Shown here piece by piece: positions 1 to 11,624 of a DNA stretch of 57,669 nucleotides. Positions within the stretch are counted from its first letter, which is position 1. The number at the start of each line of letters is the position of its first letter. Location of the stretch: NCBI GenBank assembly GCA_945864305.1, contig CAMBAJ010000004.1, positions 1-57,669 of the forward strand, given 5' to 3'. A model generated the notes under the pieces. That model saw only the letters and a list, made by a program, of their open reading frames with translations. It had not been told where the DNA came from and searched no databases. This DNA comes from an uncultured Clostridia bacterium (GTDB lineage Bacteria > Bacillota > Clostridia > Oscillospirales > Oscillospiraceae). The position numbers and the translations under genes are program-made.

Positions 1-1618
1 CGTTAGGGTTGTCCCAGCCCTCACGAAGGGCGGAGTGAGAGAAGATAAATCGTACCGGCTCGTCCAGACTAAGCAGACGCTCTTTGTCTTTCATGATCAA
101 ATCATACGCATCAGCATCATCAGAGGTCTGGGTTTTCCGGTCAATTTTACTCTCTACAAACCGTGCCTTTTTGCCCTTCTTCTTGTCAATGGAGAAATAG
201 CCCTGGTGGGTTTTGTGGACATCAATTTTATCCAGGTATTTGAGGTATGCCTCATCGCCAATCTCACGCTGGAGAGAACCCACCACGCTGGCATATTCCT
301 CCTCAAACATTTTGGCATACTCACCGTTGCGGCCATCGTCGTTGTCGCCGTCGTACAGGCGGTATTTTGCCACCTCATCGATGAAAAACAGGCTCAGGAC
401 CTTGATGCCCTTTGGATACAGTTCCCGCTCACGCTGAATGTGGGTGCGAATAGTCTCCCGAATCTGGACTCTCCGCTGGAGAGCGGTCATTTGTTCGTTG
501 CCCTGAATCTGTCCGGCATAGAGCTTCAATCCATTCAGGAAAGTGACAGAGTTGTCCCGACCATCGATGTTGGTGATAATATAGCGGTCATCATATTCCT
601 CCAGGCCGTTGGACTCATCCAGCAGGTTGGCCTCTCGCCCCAGCTTTTTTACAACAGTCCGCGTCCCTGTAGCTCCCTTGACTTCAAATCCAATGCGGGC
701 AGTCGGGGCTTTGTTTTTATAGAGGTCGATGCCCTCCAGATACACATACCCATTGGTGGCAGTGGAGCCGGTAAGGGTAACACCCAGTGCGGCGATTTTC
801 TTCACCAAATGCTGGTTGTAGGCGTCCATGGCATCCAAGCGGTACACCATGTCATATTTTTCCTTGTGGGTAGCGGAATAGCGTAGAGTGAACAGGGGGC
901 AGAACTTTTTCAGGCTCTCCTTTGTCTGTTTGCCTTCCACGCTTTGCGGCTCATCGATTATCAGAATGGGATTTGTTTTGGCAATGATGTCGATGGGCTT
1001 GCGGCTGCGGAAGGTATCCAGCTTTTTGTCAATGATTCGTTGGTTTTTGCTGGAATTGAACGCCTGCATATTGATGATCATGACGTTGATAGCACTGTCT
1101 GAGGCAAAGCGGTCCACCTCGGTGAGCCGGTCAGAGGAGTAGATAAAAAAACGGATTTTCTTGCCGTATTCCCCGGCAAAGTGTTCCTGGGTGGTCTGAA
1201 GGGATTTGTAGACGCCTTCCCGGATAGCTACCGACGGCACTACTATGATGAATTTGCTCCAGCCGTAGCGCTGGTTCAGCTCGTACATGGTCTTGACGTA
1301 TGTATAGGTTTTTCCAGTGCCGGTCTCCATCTCAATGGACAGGTTGATGCCCGGTCCCGCCAGAGCTTCAGAGGCCTTCAGGCCATTACGCCGCTGGACT
1401 GTTTGCATATTTTTCAGGATATGGGAGTTGGTCAGCTCCGGTACCAGGGGATGATTGCGGAAGCCGGTGTCGCTCATATCCAGATTTGTCTGGACATTGG
1501 TCATATCACCTAGGTCCAGGCGGTAGGTGGTGGTGCGGTAAGGCTGGCCGTTGAACACATCACAGACTGCTGCGGCAGCCTCTGCCTGGAAGGGCTGATG
1601 CTTGAATTGGAGTTTCAT
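1..1618 (-). CDS. Type III restriction enzyme Res subunit, 3' part cut by window
   Basis: This is the ATP-dependent nuclease/translocase subunit of a type III restriction-modification system; about 539 N-terminal residues are in the window and the gene runs off the left edge. Reading the minus strand from ATG at 1618 gives MKLQFKHQPFQAEA, then a Walker A motif ETGTGKTYTY near residue 99, a DEAD-like IDEPQSVEG near residue 222, an LRYSATH motif III, and FSHSALREGWDNPN at the window edge, which is the motif V/VI region typical of Res proteins. The C-terminal endonuclease domain is not visible. Its ATG shares an A with the TGA stop of mod (TGATG), so translation is probably coupled. Res needs Mod to find its site, which the operon order reflects. 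Confidence 0.93.
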   Translation of the reverse strand, partial: MKLQFKHQPFQAEAAAAVCDVFNGQPYRTTTYRLDLGDMTNVQTNLDMSDTGFRNHPLVPELTNSHILKNMQTVQRRNGLKASEALAGPGINLSIEMETGTGKTYTYVKTMYELNQRYGWSKFIIVVPSVAIREGVYKSLQTTQEHFAGEYGKKIRFFIYSSDRLTEVDRFASDSAINVMIINMQAFNSSKNQRIIDKKLDTFRSRKPIDIIAKTNPILIIDEPQSVEGKQTKESLKKFCPLFTLRYSATHKEKYDMVYRLDAMDAYNQHLVKKIAALGVTLTGSTATNGYVYLEGIDLYKNKAPTARIGFEVKGATGTRTVVKKLGREANLLDESNGLEEYDDRYIITNIDGRDNSVTFLNGLKLYAGQIQGNEQMTALQRRVQIRETIRTHIQRERELYPKGIKVLSLFFIDEVAKYRLYDGDNDDGRNGEYAKMFEEEYASVVGSLQREIGDEAYLKYLDKIDVHKTHQGYFSIDKKKGKKARFVESKIDRKTQTSDDADAYDLIMKDKERLLSLDEPVRFIFSHSALREGWDNPN

Positions 1619-3483
1619 CAGATCACCTTCACCTTCGTGTCCGGGGAGAGATTTTTGAAGATTTCGGTGACATTGATCTTGTCTGCATCGGTAGCGAAGG
1701 CGCTGTCCCGGAAGACGGCACGGAGGGGCTGCTGCTTCGCCATATGCTCCACCACGGTAGTGGGAACGTGTTCGTTAAAGCAGGCCATGAGGGCACCGGT
1801 GTCTACATTATGCACTATATAGCCATCCACGGTCTCGGCAGTATGGGGTAGGCTGATCTCCACTCCCCAGTCCAGCAGGCAGGCGTAGAGCAGGTCCAGG
1901 TCCGTGCGGTCATCCTTGATATTGCTTACTGTTTCACTGATGGTGAGCTGTGTCAACTCCTCGGGGTGATAATAGACATCCTTCATATTGCTCTCGTCTA
2001 CCCGGAATACCCGGAAGCCAATATCCAAGTTAGCGTCAGGATGCTCGGATTTGATTTTATCACCTGCTCGACGGATGCGCTCTTTGCCGATTTCGCAGAT
2101 ATTTTTGTAGCCGGCTTTGAATGCTTCGGATTTTTCATTGCAGGGCTCTTGGTACTGCACCATGATGAATTTTCGGTGTCCACCATCTTCAGCATTCAGC
2201 TGCATAACGGCGTGGGCAGTGGTTGCAGAACCGGAGTAAAAATCCATGATTGTTGAGCCTTCTTCAGAATAAAGCTGAATACACCGCTTAATTAATTCAA
2301 CAGGCTTAGGGTAATCAAAGAAAGATTTTCCGTCAAAAAGTTCTTTTAGGCGTTGCTTAGCTTCTTGAGAATGCCCAACTTCTGCATATTTCCAAATAGT
2401 CATAGGCGTAATGCCCTGCTTGACTTCGGATAAAAATCGCTTTATAGATGGAACGTTATTTCCATCTTCACCAAACCAGATTCGGTTGTCAGAAACAAAT
2501 TCATTAAACCTTGATTGATCTAATCGCCAGCAATAGCCGCTGGGCGGGAACACCTTACGTCCACTCGGCGTAACGATTTCATATACCTTAGATTCAACCC
2601 TGGGGCCGACAGATAAATCGCTCGACTTCCACGGACCGCGCGGATCATTGTCTGGATTGGAATACCGATCATTTGCCTCATTACTGCGAGTCAGCCCATT
2701 ACAAATTAGATTGCTGACACTCTTGGCGTAGCAAACCACATAATCGTGACTTTCAGAAAAATGCTTTTTTAAATTTACAGGAGAGTATGCTCGCTCCCAT
2801 ACGATTTGCGCGATAAAATTTGTTCCACCAAATACTTCGTCACAAATCTTTTTTAGATTTTCTTGCTCATGATCGTCAATTGAAATGAAGATAACTCCAT
2901 CTTCTGATAAAAAATTTCTGGCTTGTATAAGTTGCGGGAGCATAATCGAGCACCAGTCGGAGTGAAATCTCCCATTAGTATCTCTATTTACGCATAGGCG
3001 AGTTCCGCTTTCATCAACAACTCCAGCCGCAATATCTTCTTCATATTGAGAGTGAATTTGAGAATCCGGGTAAATAAAAACATCACTACCTGTGTTATAT
3101 GGCGGGTCTATGTAGATTACTTTAATTTTTCCCAGATAGCTCTCTTGCAAGATTTTTAGAACTTCTAGGTTGTCACCCTCGATATAAAGGTTTTCTGTGG
3201 TGTCCCAGTCACGGCTGTCTTCCTTTACCGGGCGGAGTGTCTTGGTGATAGGCCGAGCAGCCTCGGCCATGGCGGCCTTTTTGCCCACCCAGGTAAACTC
3301 ATAGCATTCATCGCCATCTACCACATCCCGGCTCAGCAGCTGCTTCAGCACTTCAAAGTTGACGCCTTTCTTGACCTGCCCATCCTCACCCCGCATCTCG
3401 GTTATGGCAGAGGGGAACAGCGTCGCAATCTTTTCAATATTATCAGACACCATATCCGGCGTTTCAAATTTCATGTGGTCCAT
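1618..3483 (-). CDS. Type III DNA methyltransferase Mod subunit
   Basis: Mod is an adenine-specific DNA methyltransferase that protects host DNA and gives the Res complex its sequence specificity. The 621-residue protein has the catalytic DPPY motif (IDPPYNTG near residue 126), then a long variable region, then the SAM-binding motif DFYSGSATTAHAV near residue 412. That order is the beta class used by type III enzymes. ATG at 3483 was chosen because GGGAGG lies 9 nt upstream; a longer frame to 3615 has no such site and overlaps the upstream gene. The start overlaps the TAA of the preceding gene (TAATG). The central third, about 2281-3180, is visibly AT-richer (about 35-40% GC in sampled lines) than both ends (about 65% in a sampled line), as if the target recognition domain had been exchanged. 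Confidence 0.95.
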   Translation of the reverse strand: MDHMKFETPDMVSDNIEKIATLFPSAITEMRGEDGQVKKGVNFEVLKQLLSRDVVDGDECYEFTWVGKKAAMAEAARPITKTLRPVKEDSRDWDTTENLYIEGDNLEVLKILQESYLGKIKVIYIDPPYNTGSDVFIYPDSQIHSQYEEDIAAGVVDESGTRLCVNRDTNGRFHSDWCSIMLPQLIQARNFLSEDGVIFISIDDHEQENLKKICDEVFGGTNFIAQIVWERAYSPVNLKKHFSESHDYVVCYAKSVSNLICNGLTRSNEANDRYSNPDNDPRGPWKSSDLSVGPRVESKVYEIVTPSGRKVFPPSGYCWRLDQSRFNEFVSDNRIWFGEDGNNVPSIKRFLSEVKQGITPMTIWKYAEVGHSQEAKQRLKELFDGKSFFDYPKPVELIKRCIQLYSEEGSTIMDFYSGSATTAHAVMQLNAEDGGHRKFIMVQYQEPCNEKSEAFKAGYKNICEIGKERIRRAGDKIKSEHPDANLDIGFRVFRVDESNMKDVYYHPEELTQLTISETVSNIKDDRTDLDLLYACLLDWGVEISLPHTAETVDGYIVHNVDTGALMACFNEHVPTTVVEHMAKQQPLRAVFRDSAFATDADKINVTEIFKNLSPDTKVKVI

Positions 3484-3857
3484 TATGTTTTTCCTCCCAA
3501 GCAAAGACTTGTCGTTATGATTGCGGTAAGGATTGAAACGATAAAAGGAATAATGGCTTCTTTTAGTAAGAAGGCACCAAATCTGCCTACATTGTTGGAA
3601 AACCACCCTTTCCAAAACTCCTTAACAGCAACAGAACCCTTAGGAGTTACAGCTAACCAAATAATTGTGTTGTCAGCAAAGCTATAACTTACATATTCGC
3701 TCTCTTTTAACTCTTTTAATTCTGATCTCAGTATATCATCATCGTATTTATTGGATTTGTAGCTTCTTGTTAGTGCATTTTTAAGATCGCCCAGTCCCAA
3801 AACTCCGGGTGTGTTTTTAATAGCTCTAAGTATTACAAATTGTCTGTAGGTTATCAT
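3483..3857 (-). CDS. Small winged-helix-like protein with C-terminal membrane segment
   Basis: This 124-residue protein sits inside the restriction operon between DUF4391 and mod. Residues 1-75 look like a winged helix: a helical LRAIKNTPGVLGLGDLKNAL stretch, a second helix ILRSELKELKESEYV, and a beta-wing with TIIWLAVTPKG. Residues about 98-118 (IIPFIVSILTAIITTSLCL) form one hydrophobic span, so the protein should be anchored in the membrane by its C-terminus. The start overlaps the DUF4391 gene by 32 bp in another frame, and the stop overlaps the mod start (TAATG), so it belongs to the same transcript. It is AT-rich compared with its neighbours. I do not recognise a named family; the domain reading is inference from sequence pattern. 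It could be a membrane-tethered regulator or an effector. Confidence 0.8.
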   Translation of the reverse strand: MITYRQFVILRAIKNTPGVLGLGDLKNALTRSYKSNKYDDDILRSELKELKESEYVSYSFADNTIIWLAVTPKGSVAVKEFWKGWFSNNVGRFGAFLLKEAIIPFIVSILTAIITTSLCLGGKT

Positions 3858-4503
3858 TTGAATTAACTTCCTCCAATCTCCGAATTTCTCGCCTCAGTTC
3901 CATCTGTTTTCCCAGCTGCTTCTCTTTTTTCATCTTTGCCTTCAGCTGCTCAATCTGCCGCTGGAGCTTTTCTTTTTCCCGGGTCTGCTCCACGGCTTCT
4001 TTCAGGCTCTCTGCTGCTGGGGCAGCAATGGCATCCCTGGCAATCTGGCGGACAATACTCTCGTACAGGCCGTCCATGTCCAAAGCGTGCAGTTCCAGCG
4101 TCAAATCGTCTAAAGGCATCCAGTCGGTGTGGTATGCCTGCCGGAGTTGGAAGGCGTTGCTGCCTGCCTGACTGGCTTCTTTGTAGCTGATCCAGAGCTT
4201 GCCCTCGCCGCCGTCACGCTCCAGCAGAAACAGGATGTGATAGGGAATCTGCTTGTCCATCAGCCGCAGTACGCTGGGGTCAATCTCCTGCCCCTGGAGC
4301 CGCAGGCGGAACACCTCAATCTCCGTCACTGTTTGCCCTGTGGCAAGGTTCATCGTCTGTGCCGAAAGCTTGTTCTGCCAGGTAATGAGTTTCACCTGGT
4401 CCACGAACATCCTCCGCAGCTCCGGCGTCACATCCAGGTGTTCATAAAATTTCTGCTTGGGGATGCGGCGGCCAAATTCCGTGGTTTTGGGGAAATTCAG
4501 CAT
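3826..4503 (-). CDS. DUF4391 domain-containing protein
   Basis: A 225-residue soluble protein matching the DUF4391 type (N-terminal FPKTTEFGRRIPKQKFYEHL, central IPYHILFLLERDGGEGKLWISYKE). DUF4391 proteins are commonly encoded beside SNF2 helicases and type III restriction genes, but their biochemical role is unknown. The last 60 residues are a charged coiled coil (EQTREKEKLQRQIEQLKAKM onward), likely used to bind a partner such as the helicase. Its ATG overlaps the end of the helicase gene by 7 bp (ATGCTGA), indicating coupled translation and probably a fixed stoichiometry. The 3' end overlaps the start of the winged-helix gene. The family assignment is from memory of the pattern. Confidence 0.85.
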   Translation of the reverse strand: MLNFPKTTEFGRRIPKQKFYEHLDVTPELRRMFVDQVKLITWQNKLSAQTMNLATGQTVTEIEVFRLRLQGQEIDPSVLRLMDKQIPYHILFLLERDGGEGKLWISYKEASQAGSNAFQLRQAYHTDWMPLDDLTLELHALDMDGLYESIVRQIARDAIAAPAAESLKEAVEQTREKEKLQRQIEQLKAKMKKEKQLGKQMELRREIRRLEEVNSNDNLQTICNT

Positions 4504-7500
4504 GAGCCATCCTCCTTTACCACCAGGAAGCAGATCAACTCAAAGTCATCCAGCCCGGACACCTGGCTCAGCAAGGCGGAAGTGCCGCCGGAACGGAACA
4601 GACTATCCAGGTCGCTGTCCTCCTTGGCGTCCACAATAGACAGCACGGCGTCCTCCAGCAAGCTGGAGTAGACAGCCATGTTCCTGCCATCGTCCGTTTC
4701 CTCATTGAAGGCACGGCACAGGGCTTCGATGGGCTTGTCCTTTCCGCGGCACAGCTGCCGCATGGCGTCCAGTGTATCCTTGGGGGAAAGGTGATCGTGA
4801 ACGGTGACGCCTTCCTCAGTGAGATAGACCAGATAGTAGGGGTGCAGTCGGTTTCGGTTATCGATATTTACCTCGTTATGCACATTTTTCAATACGAACA
4901 CGACACCTGCCGGGGCATCCGGTGTTGCGGCAGCGACGGCGCTGATACCGCCGGGACAAGTCTCCAGTTCCGGATGATGCTTGGAGTATTCTATCAGCTC
5001 CATGCGGAACTCATTGAGGCCCAGGTCAGTAATGGACACGCCGGTACCCATGTCCTCCAGGTCCACCACCTCGGTCTGAAGCCGCTGAAGCTGTTTGCGG
5101 CGGTATTCCAGATCGCCCTGTTCCTCCGGGGAAAGCAGATTGTCGTCGCCAGTGGAGGTCATGACCAGGGCTTTCATACGGGTCTCTACACGGGCTTTCA
5201 GATTAATGTAGTCGTCCAACTGCATATCCGGCCAGAAGTTGATCATCTGGATCACATCGTTCCGGCTGCCGATTCGGTCCACCCGGCCAAAGCGCTGGAC
5301 CAGACGCACTGGGTTCCAATGAATGTCATAGTTCACCAGGCAGTCGCAGTCCTGAAGATTCTGGCCTTCGGAAATGCAGTCGGTGGCGATGAGAATGTCG
5401 ATGTCCGGGCCATCAGGCATGAGAGACGCCCTGTCTTTGGAGATAGGAGAGAAACAGGTCAGGACGTTGTTCAAGTCGGCTTTGAACTTGGGGACAGTGG
5501 TGCGCCCGTCCACGCTGCCGGTAACCAAAGCGGTATTCAGGCCGAACTCCGACTGGGCAAACCGGCTGACATTGTCGTAAAGATATTTAGCGGTATCGGA
5601 GAAAGCGGTGAAGATGATGAGCTTTTTGTTACCGGGGTTCAGCGGATTTTCAATCTTCTGGGCAATGGTATCCAGGAGAATTTGCAGTTTGCTGTCGTGC
5701 TCCGGCGTGATCTTCGACACCGTGTTTACCAGAACATAGAGCGTATTGAAATCTTCCTCCAGGTCCTGTTTCCAGGTGACATAGTCCATGTCTTCCAGGG
5801 CAATCTTTACCTTTTTGCCAACGGAGCACAGATCGCTTTCCTGGTCATCGGCGTCAAAATCCACCGTACTGGTCAGGTCATTGAGCTCCAAAGTGAGGTT
5901 GGGGTCATAATGGGCTATGGTATCCAGCGTAGAGCAGATCTGGTCCTGGATGCGTTTTATCGTCAGGAGGAAAGAATGGACGGAACTCTCCAGCCGTTTG
6001 AGCAGGTTGATGCTCATCAGGCGGCGGATACCTTGCTCACGACCTACCTGTGTCAAACTGTTTTTGCCCTCGTGGTTCAGAGCGGCGTATTTCTCCATTC
6101 GGCTGGGCAAAATGTAGTTTGAAGGGGTATAGATGCTCAGTGTCAGGCTGAGGAGCATCTCATTAATTTCGTTGTAAGTAACAGTATCTTCCAAATCTGT
6201 CAGCGGTGGGCGCTTGGAGATGGGCGGTAGTCGTTTTGGAAATTTACCGATTTCACTGACGTTATAGTATTTTTCGATGTGTCTCCGGGAACGGGCAATA
6301 GTGACGGCATCCAGAATCTCAAAGAAATCGAAGTCCAGCATCCGCATGAGCTTATCGGTAGTGCGCAGCTCCACATCCCATTCGCTCCAGGTGTTGAATG
6401 CCTTCTGGGCATTGCGAAAAATTTCTTCCACACTACGATCTGTATTTAGTTTGCCGCGCCAGGTATCGCTGTTTCCTTCGTATGCCAGAGCCAGTTGGTT
6501 CCGCAGGTCATAAAAACGGTTGTTGACGGGTGTCGCGGAAAGCATCAGGACTCTGGTACGAGCGCCAGGGCGGATGACCTTTTCCATCAGATAATCGTAG
6601 CGGTTAAATTTGCCGTCTTCGGGGTTGCTGCTGCCGCCGTTACGGAAATTATGAGACTCGTCAATGACCACTAAGTCATAGGCGCTCCAATTCAATTTGG
6701 AAAGGTCCAATTCGCCGGACATGCCTTTGCTCCGGGAGAGGTCCGTATGATAAAGGACATCATAACGCAGACGGTCATCGGCGATAGGGTTATTGACATA
6801 GTTGGCCTTGTAGGTCATCCAATTATCGCTGAGCTTTTTTGGGCAGAGTACCAATACCCGCAAATTGCGGTTCTCGTAATATTTGATCACTGCCAGAGCG
6901 GTAAAGGTTTTGCCGAGGCCGACGCTATCTGCCAAGATACAGCCGTTGTACTGTTCTAACTTGCTGATGATAGCCAGCACGGCATCTTTCTGGAACGTGT
7001 AGAGCTTGTTCCATACCAGACTTTCCTTGAAACCATTGGCATCACTGGGGAGATCATCTTCACTGATATTCTCCAGAAAATCACTGAAAATGTTGTAGAG
7101 AGCGAAGAAGTAAAGAAATTCCGGACTATTTTCCCGGTAAGCAGTGGTAATGCGTTCCAAAACTACTTCCGTTACATCCTGAAGACGATGTTTGTCCGAC
7201 CAAAGCTGATCAAACAGGGCGATGTAGGCTTTGCTTTCCGGGGCATCAATTTTGTTGATCATGCTAAACATGTTGCCACCGCGCTCACAGCCCAAGTCCG
7301 CCCGTGTGAATCCATTGACTGGCGCATACGCAGTCGGATGTTCGTTATCCACAGCAATGAAACCAGGCATCGTTTCGTCTGTACAATTAGACTTGAAGCG
7401 GGCTTTTTTACGAATCCAATCAGCGCATTCCTTTGAAATCGTGCGCTGGGTAAATTCATTGCGTAGCCGAATCTCAAACTCGTTTCCGTGCAAGGCCTTT

Positions 7501-7736
7501 TCACGTTTCTGCCGTGGAATATAGAACTCACGCTGTTCTTTGCCTGAGGATTCTGAAAGGAAGGTCGGAGATGTAAAAATGAAGCGCATCTCATCAATAG
7601 ACTGAAGCTGCTCCTTCAATTCTTTATATGCATAGACAGAAAAACACGCGGCAGCAATAGAGAGTTTGCTGTTTTTGGTAACTTCAGTCTGCATATCATC
7701 AATTAGTTTCTCAGTAATATTATTAATGATTTTCAT
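4497..7736 (-). CDS. SNF2-family helicase, defence-associated
   Basis: A 1079-residue SNF2-type ATPase leading the restriction operon. The helicase core shows Walker A (LADSVGLGKTFTA near residue 270), the DEAH-type IDESHNFRNG near 358, MLSATPVNN, and the C-terminal motifs IATDCISEGQNLQ and QRFGRVDRIGS near 818. Residues 1-170 resemble the degenerate phospholipase-D-like N-terminal domain often found in such helicases, though I see no intact HKD pair. ATG at 7736 was chosen because AGGTGA lies 5 nt before it; an upstream ATG at 7778 lacks a site. In the family these enzymes remodel or translocate on DNA, and with Mod, Res and DUF4391 the gene probably belongs to a restriction-like defence system. 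The N-terminal 700 bp is lower in GC than the rest. Confidence 0.93.
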   Translation of the reverse strand: MKIINNITEKLIDDMQTEVTKNSKLSIAAACFSVYAYKELKEQLQSIDEMRFIFTSPTFLSESSGKEQREFYIPRQKREKALHGNEFEIRLRNEFTQRTISKECADWIRKKARFKSNCTDETMPGFIAVDNEHPTAYAPVNGFTRADLGCERGGNMFSMINKIDAPESKAYIALFDQLWSDKHRLQDVTEVVLERITTAYRENSPEFLYFFALYNIFSDFLENISEDDLPSDANGFKESLVWNKLYTFQKDAVLAIISKLEQYNGCILADSVGLGKTFTALAVIKYYENRNLRVLVLCPKKLSDNWMTYKANYVNNPIADDRLRYDVLYHTDLSRSKGMSGELDLSKLNWSAYDLVVIDESHNFRNGGSSNPEDGKFNRYDYLMEKVIRPGARTRVLMLSATPVNNRFYDLRNQLALAYEGNSDTWRGKLNTDRSVEEIFRNAQKAFNTWSEWDVELRTTDKLMRMLDFDFFEILDAVTIARSRRHIEKYYNVSEIGKFPKRLPPISKRPPLTDLEDTVTYNEINEMLLSLTLSIYTPSNYILPSRMEKYAALNHEGKNSLTQVGREQGIRRLMSINLLKRLESSVHSFLLTIKRIQDQICSTLDTIAHYDPNLTLELNDLTSTVDFDADDQESDLCSVGKKVKIALEDMDYVTWKQDLEEDFNTLYVLVNTVSKITPEHDSKLQILLDTIAQKIENPLNPGNKKLIIFTAFSDTAKYLYDNVSRFAQSEFGLNTALVTGSVDGRTTVPKFKADLNNVLTCFSPISKDRASLMPDGPDIDILIATDCISEGQNLQDCDCLVNYDIHWNPVRLVQRFGRVDRIGSRNDVIQMINFWPDMQLDDYINLKARVETRMKALVMTSTGDDNLLSPEEQGDLEYRRKQLQRLQTEVVDLEDMGTGVSITDLGLNEFRMELIEYSKHHPELETCPGGISAVAAATPDAPAGVVFVLKNVHNEVNIDNRNRLHPYYLVYLTEEGVTVHDHLSPKDTLDAMRQLCRGKDKPIEALCRAFNEETDDGRNMAVYSSLLEDAVLSIVDAKEDSDLDSLFRSGGTSALLSQVSGLDDFELICFLVVKEDGSC

Positions 7737-7803
7737 GCCTTCACCTATCATCCAACCCGTAATTTTATATTTAGTCATCAGAATTCTATCGAATAATATT
7801 TAT

Positions 7804-7832
7804 AGTATATATTTTACTTGTAAAAATATCAA
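7804..7832 (-). promoter_or_regulatory. Promoter of the SNF2-DUF4391-Mod-Res operon
   Basis: On the minus strand TTGATA (7832-7827), a 17-bp spacer and TATACT (7809-7804) form a near-consensus sigma-A promoter about 70 bp before the helicase start. The -35 lies inside one of two ATTGATATTTTT repeats, so a repressor bound there would block polymerase. Confidence 0.7.
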
Positions 7833-7865
7833 TGGTCTCTGTTAACGGTGCAAAAAATATCAATA
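7822..7865. promoter_or_regulatory. Pair of direct repeats, candidate operators of the XRE regulator
   Basis: AAAAATATCAATGGT at 7822-7836 and AAAAATATCAATAGT at 7853-7867 are direct repeats spaced 31 bp, about three helical turns. One covers the -35 of the operon promoter on the minus strand; the other lies just before the regulator gene. This placement suits coordinated control by the product of 7890-8222. Confidence 0.5.
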
Positions 7866-7889
7866 GTATAGATTGAGGGGTGAATACTA

Positions 7890-8222
7890 TTGACGATTGC
7901 AAAAACGATTGGAGAACGACTTCGCATTTACCGGGTCCAGAAAGGATGGAGCCAGGAAGTGTTGGCGGAATATGCAAAGCTGCATCCAACTTATATTGGG
8001 CAATTAGAGCGTGGTGAGAAAAACGCAACGCTTGAATCCATATCAAAAATTGCGGCTGCATTGGATGTGCCACTGTCCAAGCTATTTGAAAATATTTCTC
8101 TTCTTGCTGAAGAGCAGGATATTCCTTCCCGGTGTTATGCGCTGGTCCAGGCGCAATCGCCAAGGAAACAGGAAGCCCTGCTTGAGTTACTGAATACTGT
8201 TGTTCAATATGAAAAGCTTTAA
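7890..8222 (+). CDS. XRE-family helix-turn-helix regulator
   Basis: A 110-residue protein with an N-terminal XRE/Cro HTH domain (IGERLRIYRVQKGWSQEVLAEYAKLHPTYIGQLERG, residues 7-42), like the controller proteins beside restriction systems. It starts at TTG at 7890, with GAGGGG 9 nt upstream; no ATG fits. The C-terminal 35 residues are helical and may dimerise. The gene diverges from the restriction operon across a 153-bp gap holding the direct repeats described at 7822-7867. The likely role is to delay or limit expression of the operon after entry into a new host, as C proteins do, and to regulate itself. This function is inference from family and position. Confidence 0.9.
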   Translation: MTIAKTIGERLRIYRVQKGWSQEVLAEYAKLHPTYIGQLERGEKNATLESISKIAAALDVPLSKLFENISLLAEEQDIPSRCYALVQAQSPRKQEALLELLNTVVQYEKL

Positions 8223-8267
8223 GTATAAATCGGTAGTGTTGCTATGTAGATCATTCTTATAATAAAA

Positions 8268-8310
8268 GTGGCCGCTACACTTTTGGAAAGTGTGGCGGCT
8301 TTCATTTTAC
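8268..8310 (+). terminator. Terminator of the XRE regulator gene
   Basis: GCCGCTACACTTT (8271-8283) and AAAGTGTGGCGGC (8287-8299) form a 13-bp stem with one G-U pair and a 3-nt loop, followed by TTTCATTTTACTTTTTT. Confidence 0.85.
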
Positions 8311-8411
8311 TTTTTTAAAGGCTTACCATAGAAAGGGTTTATATGCCACTTTGCCGACAGGCCCCTTATCCGCGCCGTAAATCTCAATGAATTCAAGCCA
8401 TATAATGTGAT

Positions 8412-8451
8412 AATAAGAAATCCCGCAGAGAAGGAATTAATCTCTGCGGGA
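8412..8451 (-). terminator. Terminator of the 440-residue protein gene
   Basis: TCCCGCAGAGA (8421-8431) pairs with TCTCTGCGGGA (8441-8451). On the minus strand the stem is followed by TTTCTTATTAT, just after the stop codon at 8458. Confidence 0.85.
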
Positions 8452-8457
8452 CATTCT

Positions 8458-9780
8458 TTACTCGTCGATATAAAATTTCTTAAGCGTATTATTCAGTTCA
8501 CTTGCCGCTCGGCTTTTATTCAGCGGATAATAATAATTAGGCTCTAATGTGCCAATTGTTATATTACTGTCATTAACGAAATCTTTCGTCATCCAGAATT
8601 TTTCTTTGTCCATACGGTTATCTATATACTCTGTATATTTTGTAGCAAGTTCTTGAGCAGCCCCCAAAATTGAAGAATAGTTAGGATTGTTAGTATTGCT
8701 TGTTACATGAAATTCAATATCGGTCCAGGCCTTATCCCATCCTAATAGTTTTTGCCTAAGAAGTTCGTCAACCGCTTTATAGCAACTACTATACTTATAG
8801 TTGCTAAAAATTTGATATGCATTAGGGACATCGCTCGACTTACATAGTCCTTTATAAAACCCCTGAGATTCAGAATAAGCGCATTGTCTAACATATTTTT
8901 GATAGTTAATGTATGCCGCAGTTTCTTCATCGGTTGCTTGTAAGGGTATTGGATTTCTATTATCCGACGAGTAATATTCATCTCTATAGCTACTTAAATC
9001 ATGGTTTGCCCATGTATCGGCTGCTAATATCAATTCTGGGTCCAAAACACAATTCTCGGTACTAGCAGTAGTATAGATATATTTCTCACGCTGTTTTTGG
9101 TCATCATGTAACTCAGTTTTGGAAAGGGTACGTCCGTAGTCATCTTGTAACCCATTAGTAGCGCAAGGAATAAAGTAGAGATTTTCCTTCCAATCAAGCC
9201 TCTCCTCCTTTTTTAACGATTCTAGTGCTCGCTTAAGTGTTTCTCTGATTTTATATGACATACATCTTTTGTACTTGACAAGTCCAGGGGCCATGTCATC
9301 AGAAATATGCCACGGATTAAACGTGCGTTCTTGCTCTAATAGTTCCATTGCTAAATCGGGATGCTGCTTTAAGTAAATCCGTTTGTACTCTTCAAAAACG
9401 CCCCAACGGTCAAATAGTTCATATGGCTGGCCTTTAAAATCTGCTGTCGCCAATATAAGTGATTTTAGACAAGTAATATATGTTCCTGCTTTTCCTCTGC
9501 CATCATCCGGTGGCAACGGTGTATCGTAAACTTTAGTAATTATCTGAGCAGACTTTTTCCCGCAGTCTGGGTCTATATCTTTTAGAGCCGTAAACTCAAC
9601 ATAGCACCTTGCTACTTTTTCAGCTAAGGCTTTATTACGTGAGCCGCTTTTGTACCCTTTTGGAAGTTGCACACCGGCATCAGCAAGAGCATCAAATAAG
9701 GCTGTTTTGGTGTTGAAGATTTTGTTTTCAAGAGGTTTTAGTTTTTGACAGATTTCCAATTCTTTTGCAGAGTTTTGCAT
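8458..9780 (-). CDS. Unrecognised 440-residue protein with a structured leader
   Basis: I do not recognise this protein. It is 440 residues, predicted soluble and largely helical, with no signal peptide or membrane span. Visible traits are a lysine-rich N-terminal region (KLKPLENKIFNTK, then LPKGYKSGSRNKALAEKVARCYVEF near residue 40), a central DRWGVFEEYKRIYLKQHPD, and aromatic/acidic stretches (SSYRDEYYSSDNRNP; EPNYYYPLNKS near the C-terminus). No helicase, nuclease, RT (YxDD) or transposase motif is apparent. ATG at 9780 follows AAAGGAGTG. The gene is much AT-richer than the chromosome, lies between the restriction operon and a tyrosine recombinase, has its own promoter at 10140-10167, a roughly 350-nt hairpin leader and its own terminator. 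A role in defence or in element maintenance is inference. Confidence 0.85.
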   Translation of the reverse strand: MQNSAKELEICQKLKPLENKIFNTKTALFDALADAGVQLPKGYKSGSRNKALAEKVARCYVEFTALKDIDPDCGKKSAQIITKVYDTPLPPDDGRGKAGTYITCLKSLILATADFKGQPYELFDRWGVFEEYKRIYLKQHPDLAMELLEQERTFNPWHISDDMAPGLVKYKRCMSYKIRETLKRALESLKKEERLDWKENLYFIPCATNGLQDDYGRTLSKTELHDDQKQREKYIYTTASTENCVLDPELILAADTWANHDLSSYRDEYYSSDNRNPIPLQATDEETAAYINYQKYVRQCAYSESQGFYKGLCKSSDVPNAYQIFSNYKYSSCYKAVDELLRQKLLGWDKAWTDIEFHVTSNTNNPNYSSILGAAQELATKYTEYIDNRMDKEKFWMTKDFVNDSNITIGTLEPNYYYPLNKSRAASELNNTLKKFYIDE

Positions 9781-9833
9781 AGAGTCACTCCTTTTGTAAT
9801 TTAAATTGGTAAATTAAATTTACCTAAAATACA

Positions 9834-9887
9834 GGTACTTTATATTGCTATATATTAAATAAAGTTTATATAGCACTAAGAAGTACC
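9834..9887 (-). repeat. Leader hairpin A, 54 bp
   Basis: GGTACTT (9834-9840) pairs with AAGTACC (9881-9887); after a 5-nt unpaired segment on each side, TGCTATATA pairs with TATATAGCA around a 12-nt loop (9855-9866). It has the same length and layout as hairpin B. It lies in the leader of the 440-residue gene. Confidence 0.8.
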
Positions 9888-9976
9888 TTTTATTATGTTT
9901 GGGTTTGAGTAATATTCGGCTGTTACACACTTTAATTTAATAATTTAAATCACTAAATTTAGTTTTGCTAAAAACG

Positions 9977-10030
9977 GGTACTTTCTATTGTTATATATAA
10001 CTAAAAGCATATATAACAACAAGAAGTACC
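9977..10030 (-). repeat. Leader hairpin B, 54 bp
   Basis: GGTACTT (9977-9983) pairs with AAGTACC (10024-10030), and TGTTATATA pairs with TATATAACA around a 12-nt loop. Compared with hairpin A, a C-G pair is replaced by T-A on both arms, a compensatory change. On the minus strand the stem is followed by CGTTTTT. Confidence 0.8.
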
Positions 10031-10069
10031 ATAATTTCAATATTTGTTTTAACATTTAACTGTTAAGTC

Positions 10070-10083
10070 AAAAACGGGTACTT
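10070..10083 (-). repeat. Third leader half-site C
   Basis: CAAAAACGGGTACTT here copies TAAAAACGGGTACTT at 9969-9983, but the opposite arm is missing. Short AT-rich palindromes precede each of the three sites on the plus strand: GGTAAATTAAATTTACC near 9808, CTAAATTTAG near 9953, and TTAACA/TGTTAA near 10049. Confidence 0.65.
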
Positions 10084-10139
10084 ATTCTTCCGAATATATT
10101 TATAGATACGCTAAACACCTCCCTCTTTGATTATTATGT

Positions 10140-10167
10140 ATTATATCACAAATCCCCAAAATTGCAA
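10140..10167 (-). promoter_or_regulatory. Strong promoter for the hairpin leader and 440-residue gene
   Basis: On the minus strand TTGCAA (10167-10162), a 16-bp spacer and TATAAT (10145-10140) with an extended -10 TG (TGATATAAT) make a near-consensus sigma-A promoter. Confidence 0.8.
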
Positions 10168-10568: not shown

Positions 10569-11573
10569 TTATCGCAAATTTTGGACAGGGCTGAAATTCT
10601 GATAACGATGGGCGAGGTCGCGATCTGTTAAATCTAAGTATGCCTTTTCCGTAACCGACACACTGCTATGACCCAAAATACGGCTCAGCGTATAGACATC
10701 CATTCCCGCCATCAAGCAACGTTTTGCAAAATTGTTCCGCAACGCATGGGGTGATATAGCTTTATCGATACCAGCCCTATTCATGTAGTTTTTAAAGTTT
10801 GTTTCAAATGTCCCAATGCAAACTGGGAGTCCCGTTGCTTTCGTTGGAAATAAATACTTGGTTTCAATGTACCTGTCCTTAAATCTTATCCATCGTTGTA
10901 ATGCCCTTGCCGATTTCATAGAGAAAAATACAGCGCGTCCCTTTCTACCCTTTGTTACCTCAGCAGGGATTTGTATGATTCTCTGGTTCAAATCAATATC
11001 ATCTATTGAAAGCGAAAGACACTCTCCTAGTCGCATACCAGAATCCAATATCAACGTGATAACCGTAGCATCCCTACACTCTGGAAAATAACTCTTATCA
11101 AAGCTGTCAAGCAATTTTCTAACTTCACTATCTTCCATATAGTCCCGCGCTTTACGTTCGTTTTCCAGTAGATGAATTTTTTTCATAGGGTTTTTTATCC
11201 CCGGATATTCCTCCTCAAACCAATTAAAAAATGCTCTCAAATTACGAATATAATTGTTAATTGTAGTAATGCTGATTGGCTCGCGAAAATCCCGGCGGCG
11301 GTCAGGGCAATTCGTACACATGCGTTCTTCTTTTGCGTAGAAGCTGTACTTGCCTCTATTTTGCAAATCGCAGATATAATGTCGAATGGTCTGCTCCCGA
11401 ACTTCCGCAGGGCTTTTCAATCCCTCCTGTTCCTTTGTCCAGCGTTCAAAAAGGCGCAAGGTCTGTTCATAGCTGTTCAAGGTCTTAGGGCGCAGACGCC
11501 GACTTTGACAATAATAGAGGTATTCGTCAATGAAGAAATCAAAATCTCTTTTGGCTTGTTCCTTTCCTCGCAT
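10569..11573 (-). CDS. Tyrosine recombinase/integrase
   Basis: A 334-residue site-specific recombinase of the phage-integrase family. The N-terminal SAM-like core-binding domain (FFIDEYLYYCQSRRLRPKTLNSYEQTLRLFERW) is followed by the catalytic domain with Arg in SGMRLGE (near 180), Lys in TKGRKGR (near 207), HALR (near 278), GHSS (near 302) and the nucleophile Tyr in KAYLDL (near 312). A Cys pair MCTNCPDRRRDF sits in the N-terminal domain, an insertion seen in some Clostridia integrases. The gene lies between the island and spo0A, so it probably moved the island. The ribosome site AGGAG (11585-11581) is 7 nt from the ATG and is buried in a 20-bp hairpin, which should restrict translation from read-through transcripts. 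Confidence 0.95.
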   Translation of the reverse strand: MRGKEQAKRDFDFFIDEYLYYCQSRRLRPKTLNSYEQTLRLFERWTKEQEGLKSPAEVREQTIRHYICDLQNRGKYSFYAKEERMCTNCPDRRRDFREPISITTINNYIRNLRAFFNWFEEEYPGIKNPMKKIHLLENERKARDYMEDSEVRKLLDSFDKSYFPECRDATVITLILDSGMRLGECLSLSIDDIDLNQRIIQIPAEVTKGRKGRAVFFSMKSARALQRWIRFKDRYIETKYLFPTKATGLPVCIGTFETNFKNYMNRAGIDKAISPHALRNNFAKRCLMAGMDVYTLSRILGHSSVSVTEKAYLDLTDRDLAHRYQNFSPVQNLR

Positions 11574-11575
11574 AA

Positions 11576-11624
11576 AAACACTCCTAACTTATTGGTTTTT
11601 CAGCCCAATAAATTAGGAGTGTTT
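11576..11624 (-). promoter_or_regulatory. Hairpin sequestering the recombinase ribosome-binding site
   Basis: Arms 11576-11595 and 11605-11624 are 20 nt each. In minus-strand RNA all 20 positions can pair, one as G-U; in plus-strand RNA the same position is a C-A mismatch. The 3' arm contains the AGGAG ribosome site of the recombinase. Confidence 0.7.

Follow-up and report, generated by a model that had tools for sequence, protein, structure and literature searches.

A quasi-palindromic leader element, present in both orientations, upstream of an unnamed protein family on mobile DNA of gut bacteria

Introduction

The dimeric RepE protein of plasmid F binds inverted repeats that lie between the repE promoter and the repE reading frame (sections of PMC13028717). 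At the RNA level, the locus of the AbiF RNA (RF03085; RCd22 in C. difficile, with its start site 168 nt before the ATG) is composed of a promoter, a leader with two structured motifs, the integrity of whose stems matters, and one protein gene on mobile DNA (sections of PMC12373285). In type III toxin-antitoxin systems the antitoxin is encoded by a tandem short-repeat array, which a Rho-independent terminator separates from the toxin gene (sections of PMC5086642).

We have analyzed a stretch of 57,669 nucleotides, here called the window, from an uncultured Clostridia bacterium (GenBank assembly GCA_945864305.1, contig CAMBAJ010000004.1; genome G000), in which the gene for a 440-residue protein, P0001, follows a long leader with two hairpins, and have compared it with homologous loci in genomes G371 (protein P0002), G492 (P0003), G1155 (P0004) and G1181 (P0005). 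As with RepE of mini-F, this is a gene of mobile DNA with inverted repeats between the promoter and its own reading frame (in the window, G371, G492 and G1155), the arms are repeated both singly and in pairs, and the product may well be DNA-binding. Unlike RepE, which is of the Rep_3 type, the protein family matches no Rep family in Pfam (nor any HTH, RNase or recombinase family there), NCBIfam or PHROG; no iteron array or origin is shown here, its arms, of about 24 bp, form a hairpin whose spacers are unpaired, and the C-terminal part of the protein has no assignment.

Among RNA systems AbiF comes closest in layout, and the locus shares with it the order of promoter, structured leader and single protein gene on mobile DNA. 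It differs in that the hairpins are of 54–61 nt as against 33–35 nt in AbiF, that they occur in both orientations, and that the window lacks a terminator-like site between hairpins and gene; there is no Abi_2 Pfam match in P0001 at E up to 1, in P0002 or P0003 at 0.5, in P0004 at 0.01 or in P0005 at 1, and neither the window leader nor that of G1155 matches the abiF motif RF03085 at E up to 10. The type III systems ToxIN, CptIN and TenpIN, in which the toxin is an endoribonuclease inhibited by the RNA, likewise have a structured leader upstream of one protein gene, as here, where it is repeated in the window; unlike them, our locus has no tandem short-repeat array, no terminator between leader and gene in the window and no RNase family match. 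A first-pass annotation of this DNA, made from the sequence alone, had likened the locus to such RNA-protein systems, a likeness that finds no support given these absences, the lack of an Abi_2 match and the two orientations of the element. P0001 is also much larger than known type III toxins, a point that the same annotation made.

The leader in the window

The leader and the genes on either side of it contain the following features.

8458..9780, minus strand: gene of the 440-residue protein P0001, one of five known members of its family
9788..9795, minus strand: ribosome-binding site AAAAGGAG, read from the sequence
9792..9887, minus strand: downstream copy of a local tandem duplication (repeat families D1 and D2; the other copy is at about 9936–10030)
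9808..9824, no strand assigned: short palindrome GGTAAATTAAATTTACC, read from the sequence, in the interval that separates HP3 from the ribosome-binding site
9834..9887, minus strand: HP3, second copy of the quasi-palindrome, orientation class A (70.9 bits with covariance model R1, of which it is a training sequence)
9977..10030, minus strand: HP2, quasi-palindrome with facing arms GGTAYTTNTT-N-TATATA, orientation class A (68.5 bits with R1, also a training sequence)
10077..10112, plus strand: lone arm (half-site) with the sequence GGTACTTATTCTTCCGAATATATTTATAGATACGCT on the non-coding strand
10140..10167, minus strand: promoter-like site TTGCAA-16-TATAAT with a TG before the -10, reading toward the 440-residue gene
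10569..11573, minus strand: tyrosine integrase gene (PF00589, 3.8e-34), directly upstream

Inspection of the sequence and a repeat search place the two 54-bp quasi-palindromes exactly where the first-pass annotation had put them, and both follow the plan it described, with a 7-bp GGTACTT stem, five unpaired positions, a 9-bp TGYTATATA stem and a 12-nt loop; the third half-site it reported is also present, with GGTACTT on the plus strand from position 10077. Between the copies a C-G pair has become T-A on both arms (TGCTATATA/TATATAGCA as against TGTTATATA/TATATAACA). This had been taken to mean that the stem is conserved and not only its sequence; the double change is real and is followed into the homologues below, but two copies derived from a local duplication are weak evidence. 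The hairpins sit inside a locally duplicated segment some 95 bases long, in two parts (61 nt, 79% identical, and 38 nt adjoining, 76% identical), and the two copies have diverged and lie 143 bases apart. The promoter proposed for the leader is likewise there, at 10167–10140 and with 10 of 12 positions matching, but a promoter scan of the region performed at chance (12 found, 9.6 expected).

The 353-nt leader has a folding energy of -79.2 kcal/mol compared with -56.2 when shuffled (z -5.1), and none of 100 dinucleotide shuffles folds as well. No Rfam family reaches its gathering score in the whole window; in a permissive Rfam scan of the leader the best match is mir-2944 (27.0 bits, E 0.0023, with a gathering score of 56), followed by ten weaker ones. 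No terminator-like site was found on the coding strand between 10140 and 9781.

The protein family

Homologues were gathered by whole-genome searches in which the genome sets are samples, and four were found. With P0001 as query, 400 genomes of its family yielded a single relative besides P0001 itself (in G371; 25% identity, E 1.8e-31), and P0002 used in the same way on 400 genomes of G371's family found only itself. A two-row profile led to G492 among 394 genomes of the order, a three-row profile found nothing further credible in 391 genomes of the class, and an N-terminal profile identified G1155 among 60 relatives. The four-row profile matched 3 of 86 genomes of the genus (the window's own G000, G1155 and G1181), and the five-row profile, applied to 87 genomes of G492's family, recovered G492 and a relative in G1240 that matches by its N-terminal domain only. 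A contig search gave no loci with P0001 and two (G492 and G371) with the alignment. Viral contigs scanned at the protein level had no homologue, and neither did the phages and plasmids searched by tblastn with P0001 or the phages searched with P0004. Identities in the five-row alignment are 24.9 to 35.6% between lineages and 71.3% between P0004 and P0005, and the protein tree pairs P0002 with P0003 and P0004 with P0005.

Two further matches were set aside. One in G1026 (E 1.3e-5 over 89 positions) overlaps a repetitive 473-residue reading frame and crosses four stops, and was rejected; the G1240 relative, which has the N-terminal domain only, is in two overlapping frames and has no R1 match, was excluded from the family and kept as a domain relative. 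It occupies 860–1797 of locus L035, is perhaps a disrupted gene, and its locus lacks the hairpin element.

P0001 had been described as without a recognized domain. That description stands for P0001 itself, for which Pfam, PADLOC and NCBIfam gave nothing at E up to 1, but two of its four homologues, P0002 (5e-4) and P0004 (0.004), weakly match phrog_36702, a family of unknown function, through the N-terminal domain; P0001, P0003 and P0005 have no such PHROG match, so that it is seen in two of the five members. An hhalign comparison (95.6%) matches the N-terminal 84 columns of the family profile to the gp200 protein of Geobacillus virus E3. The likeness to phrog_36702 and E3 gp200 is limited to this domain, and the rest of the protein is unaligned. 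Neither GGTAYTT nor AARTACC occurs in the 399 bases examined upstream of E3 gp200 or in the 504 bases upstream of the G1240 gene, and the 302 bases upstream of a related TR-TP2 gene contain one isolated GGTATTT; in these three cases, then, the element does not accompany the N-terminal domain alone.

An AlphaFold2 model built with the five rows is mostly of low confidence (mean pLDDT 56), its confident parts being most of residues 11–90 and parts of 221–340. Residues 11 to 90 are modeled in blocks at pLDDT 74–91, in the order helix-helix-helix-strand-strand, and we read this predicted secondary structure of the N-terminus of P0001 (residues 1–92) as winged-helix-like; fold searches with the family models gave no significant structural match. 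Rep_3-type initiators such as RepE have a tandem winged-helix fold. The residues invariant across the five sequences include no His, Cys or Glu, one Asp and no catalytic set, which argues, weakly with five sequences, against a conventional nuclease. Both the protein and the element are unnamed in all of the libraries searched, and narrow literature searches found no paper on phrog_36702 or describing such a system.

Recurrence of the element with the gene

At four of the five loci (the window, G371, G492 and G1155) the hairpin plan recurs, with a promoter-like site on one side of it and the gene on the other; the promoter-like sites of the G371, G492, G1155 and G1181 leaders were read by eye. 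At G371, G492 and G1155 it is made up of a GGTAYTT box, an unpaired spacer, an inner AT-rich stem, a loop and the mirrored return. Each of the four other leaders has one hairpin, compared with two in the window, and the outer boxes are GGTAYTT/AARTACC in the six hairpins, one G371 arm having a changed base. Equivalent lone arms are present in G371, G492 and G1181, and in a degenerate form in G1155. Leader alignments score 62 for the window and G371 (shuffle mean 42; 3 of 1000 shuffles as high), 76 for the window and G492 (mean 46; 0 of 1000) and 99 for G371 and G492 (mean 40; 0 of 1000); with one leader reverse-complemented the scores are 59, 60 and 76 respectively, still above the shuffle means, which is to be expected of palindromes.

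At G1181 the 120 bases before the P0005 gene are without such a hairpin, and a repeated sequence abuts the start codon (L017 1–120, on contig C29), matching ten places in that genome. The G1181 hairpin is near the end of contig C30 (L033), below a promoter-like site, in a leader that points toward the contig end. Leader and gene are thus on separate contigs, unlike those of the window, G371, G492 and G1155, and we infer that an element has inserted between them, the sequence of C30 beyond the leader being judged by eye. G1181 was considered as a counterexample and dropped as such, given the tenfold repetition of the bases before the gene and the location of the hairpin on C30.

Covariance model R1 was trained on five hairpins (two of them from G000 and one from G1155, with G1181 not used), and its scans scored up to 63 candidates per genome under strict filters, with rough model E-values. 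It matches 3 of the 86 genus genomes, and these (G000, G1155 and G1181) are also the ones in which the protein was found; of 89 order genomes it matches one, that of the window. Because two of the three genus genomes supplied training sequences, G1181 is the sole independent success (1 of the 84 remaining). The first-pass annotation had proposed a covariance-model search as a check, and the repeated association with homologues that it would have counted as support is what we find, together with further compensatory changes. No second hairpin below E 1 was found in the five loci searched (one in L006 is at E 1.1), and single arms elsewhere are few, with one in the window (0.8 expected for all sites) and one each in L014, L033 and L018. 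A DNA pattern for the lone arm had a single match in viral contigs, by eye in apparent coding sequence, which we take as chance.

Covariation and folding

In an alignment of five hairpins 91.3% of 80 cells pair and 7 are unpaired; double-sided changes are seen in 5 of 16 pairs (6 of 500 shuffles have as many) and in 7 of the 80 cells (1 of 500 shuffles), there are no one-sided changes, and further pair types are no more numerous than shuffles would give (65 of 500 as high). With the G1181 hairpin added and the two inverted copies turned, 89.6% of 96 cells pair and 10 do not, and 9 of the 96 carry double changes, one of them U-G (0 of 500 shuffles as many); for pairs with a double change 28 of 500 shuffles have as many, and for further pair types 147 of 500.

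The interiors of the hairpins were also folded with the outer 7-bp stems fixed (the window hairpins against 1000 mononucleotide shuffles each). They fold better than shuffles in the two window hairpins (p 0.003 and 0.002), G371 (0.017) and G1155 (0.001), and are not significant alone in G492 (0.16) and G1181 (0.09); the combined p is 2e-7 for six hairpins and 5e-6 without the duplicate HP3. Each folded alone, the leaders give z values of -1.75 in G371, -4.3 in G492 and, starting at the lone arm, -2.9 in G1155. In three of the six hairpins it is the transcribed strand that folds better; this strand forms 119 pairs with 8 G-U, compared with 116 with 10 G-U for the other strand.

Covariation of this kind is no proof of RNA. 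DNA template switching homogenizes the arms of inverted repeats and inverts spacers (PMC8604942) and can create compensatory changes in stems (PMC8794818), and it therefore also yields both compensatory change and inversion.

Orientation of the hairpin

Each hairpin has two unlike arms, GGTAYTTCTT and a GGTA that runs on into T-rich sequence. On the coding strand, class A hairpins (HP2 and HP3 of the window, G492 and G1181) have GGTAYTTCTT as their 5′ arm, and class B hairpins (G371 and G1155) have it as their 3′ arm. All 15 pairwise comparisons fit these two classes, without a shuffle control and with some score differences small, down to 1.0: the seven within-class pairs score higher the same way round and the eight between-class pairs score higher inverted. 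Only 32 of 32768 sign patterns are consistent with any two-class split, the pairs not being independent. In the clearest case, the G1155 and G1181 leaders are co-directional over about 380 bases, and their hairpins score 78 inverted as against 61.5 the same way round. Turning the two B copies raises the mean column identity from 69 to 74%. R1 scores the G1181 hairpin at 49.9 bits on the non-coding strand and 41.9 on the coding strand, so this mixed-orientation model alone does not reproduce the class assignment. Since the P0002/P0003 and P0004/P0005 tree pairs are each split between the classes, at least two inversions are needed. The presence of both orientations, together with the lack of a folding advantage of the transcribed strand, favors recognition at the level of DNA, and the simplest account of an element whose arms stay distinct while its direction changes is a site in DNA.

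Interpretation

Our preferred reading, held tentatively and at somewhat short of even confidence, is that the leader is a DNA operator array bound by the product of its own gene. The repeated unit would be an arm of about 24 bp (GGTAYTTNTT, about six bases, TATATA), arranged as a lone arm followed by a facing pair, or by two such pairs in the window, each pair forming a hairpin. The downstream protein, encoded on mobile DNA, would bind the arms as double-stranded DNA through its winged-helix-like N-terminus and, once bound, would control its own transcription from the promoter just upstream, in a RepE-like autoregulatory manner; it may perhaps also have a maintenance or replication function for the mobile element. 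What is shown is the element with its conservation, its coupling to the gene family, its two orientations and its double-sided pair changes; binding by the protein, DNA as the form bound and autoregulation as the effect are inferred. The occurrence of the arm singly supports a DNA site, and the data as a whole suggest a control site that is read in its DNA form no less than in its RNA form. The position of the lone arm, 28–63 bases below the -10 in the window and about 200 in G1155, is unusual for an operator and speaks against one. It also counts against plain co-evolution of protein and site that, by eye, the inner-stem bases of a hairpin agree with one another but differ from the lone arm in that leader; base pairing or template switching would explain this better.

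We favor the operator over a leader that acts as RNA, a less likely reading but not far behind, in which the protein would bind the hairpins of its own mRNA, either regulating expression or being held inactive as in AbiF or type III systems. In its favor, a promoter-like site precedes the element at each of the four intact loci and in the displaced leader of G1181, shuffled interiors fold less well than the real ones, and pairs change double-sidedly and never one-sidedly. The lone arm has a small hairpin of its own with a covarying stem (by eye, UUAC-AAA-GUAA in G371 and G492 and AUUC-GGAA-GAAU in the window). Pairing between the lone arm and the first arm of HP2 could form at all 7 outer positions in the window and in G492, at 6 of them in G371 and in G1181 and at 5 in G1155, and would make a two-state switch. 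Yet an RNA hairpin that is flipped shows other bases in its internal and apical loops, and both orientations occur; the transcribed strand has neither a folding advantage nor an excess of G-U; 7 of 80 and 10 of 96 cells are unpaired, further pair types are not above shuffles, and the G492 and G1181 interiors are not significant alone. The window also lacks a terminator-like site between hairpins and gene, and the hairpin matches in Rfam, all below gathering in the window and G1155 leaders, are to eukaryotic types, except a 25-base match to an S4 leader on the opposite strand (E 4.2). A rather unlikely arrangement that draws on these features has the leader adopt two mutually exclusive structures, with the lone arm joined to the 5′ arm of HP2 or with HP2 closed, their state being set by the protein; the hairpin would be invertible without loss of function and possibly a genetic switch. 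If true, this undescribed family of mobile-element proteins would come with a new RNA-protein or nucleic-acid switch.

It seems improbable that the hairpin is a recombination or replication site read as folded single-stranded DNA or a cruciform, in the manner of attC or an origin hairpin, even though its plan of 7-bp box, unpaired spacer, inner box and variable loop would suit such a site, integrase or resolvase genes are near (in the window, G492 and G1155), and inversion is seen. It keeps a constant place relative to one gene family, the five loci have no second hairpin below E 1 and few single arms elsewhere, and the protein matches no recombinase family. The outer core boxes of integron attC sites are RYYYAAC/GTTRRRY, unlike the GGTAYTT/AARTACC boxes of the six hairpins. 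We give slightly less credence still to the view that covariation and inversion are both products of template switching, so that the GGTAYTT boxes and TATATA alone matter and the hairpin is functionless; the properties of template switching given above fit it, but every one of the five leaders has the facing pair, even where the proteins are 25% identical, so that the pair is kept as a unit.

The unnamed protein family and its cis-element constitute a testable control module of gut-bacterial mobile elements, in which the cis-element is still recognizable while the protein diverges to 25–36% identity. The locus is also an example of classic covariation that is ambiguous: where a covarying element occurs inverted, recognition as DNA and template switching should be ruled out before it is called an RNA, and the orientation check used here could be applied to palindromic leaders in covariation-based RNA discovery.

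Genomic neighborhood

The P0001 gene is adjoined by a defense-type cluster at 1618–8222 of the window, made up as follows.

1618–3615: type III-like methyltransferase
3826–4503: DUF4391 protein
4497–7778: SNF2/Helicase_C protein (in PADLOC, nearest to the HKD+Snf2 model and then to DrmD)
7890–8222, plus strand: HTH control-protein-like gene

On the other side, upstream of the integrase start, a direct repeat (GTTTATCGCTAT) at 11621 and 11686 could represent att sites or arm sites of the integrase; a search of window positions 1–9000 gave no exact 12-base match to this region. Integrase and resolvase genes also occur close to the homologues in G492 and G1155. The G371 homologue has upstream of it a stretch that by eye resembles a tRNA (L003, about 7490–7570), a likely integration site, and a DUF4011/MTES_1575 helicase is encoded downstream. 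The G1155 and G1181 leaders (L013 1240–1290, matching L027) share a conserved stretch that contains, by eye, a terminator-like GC-rich hairpin, and that could encode a short peptide, M-x-R-P-x-L-D-D-S-G-G-G-F, also noted by eye.
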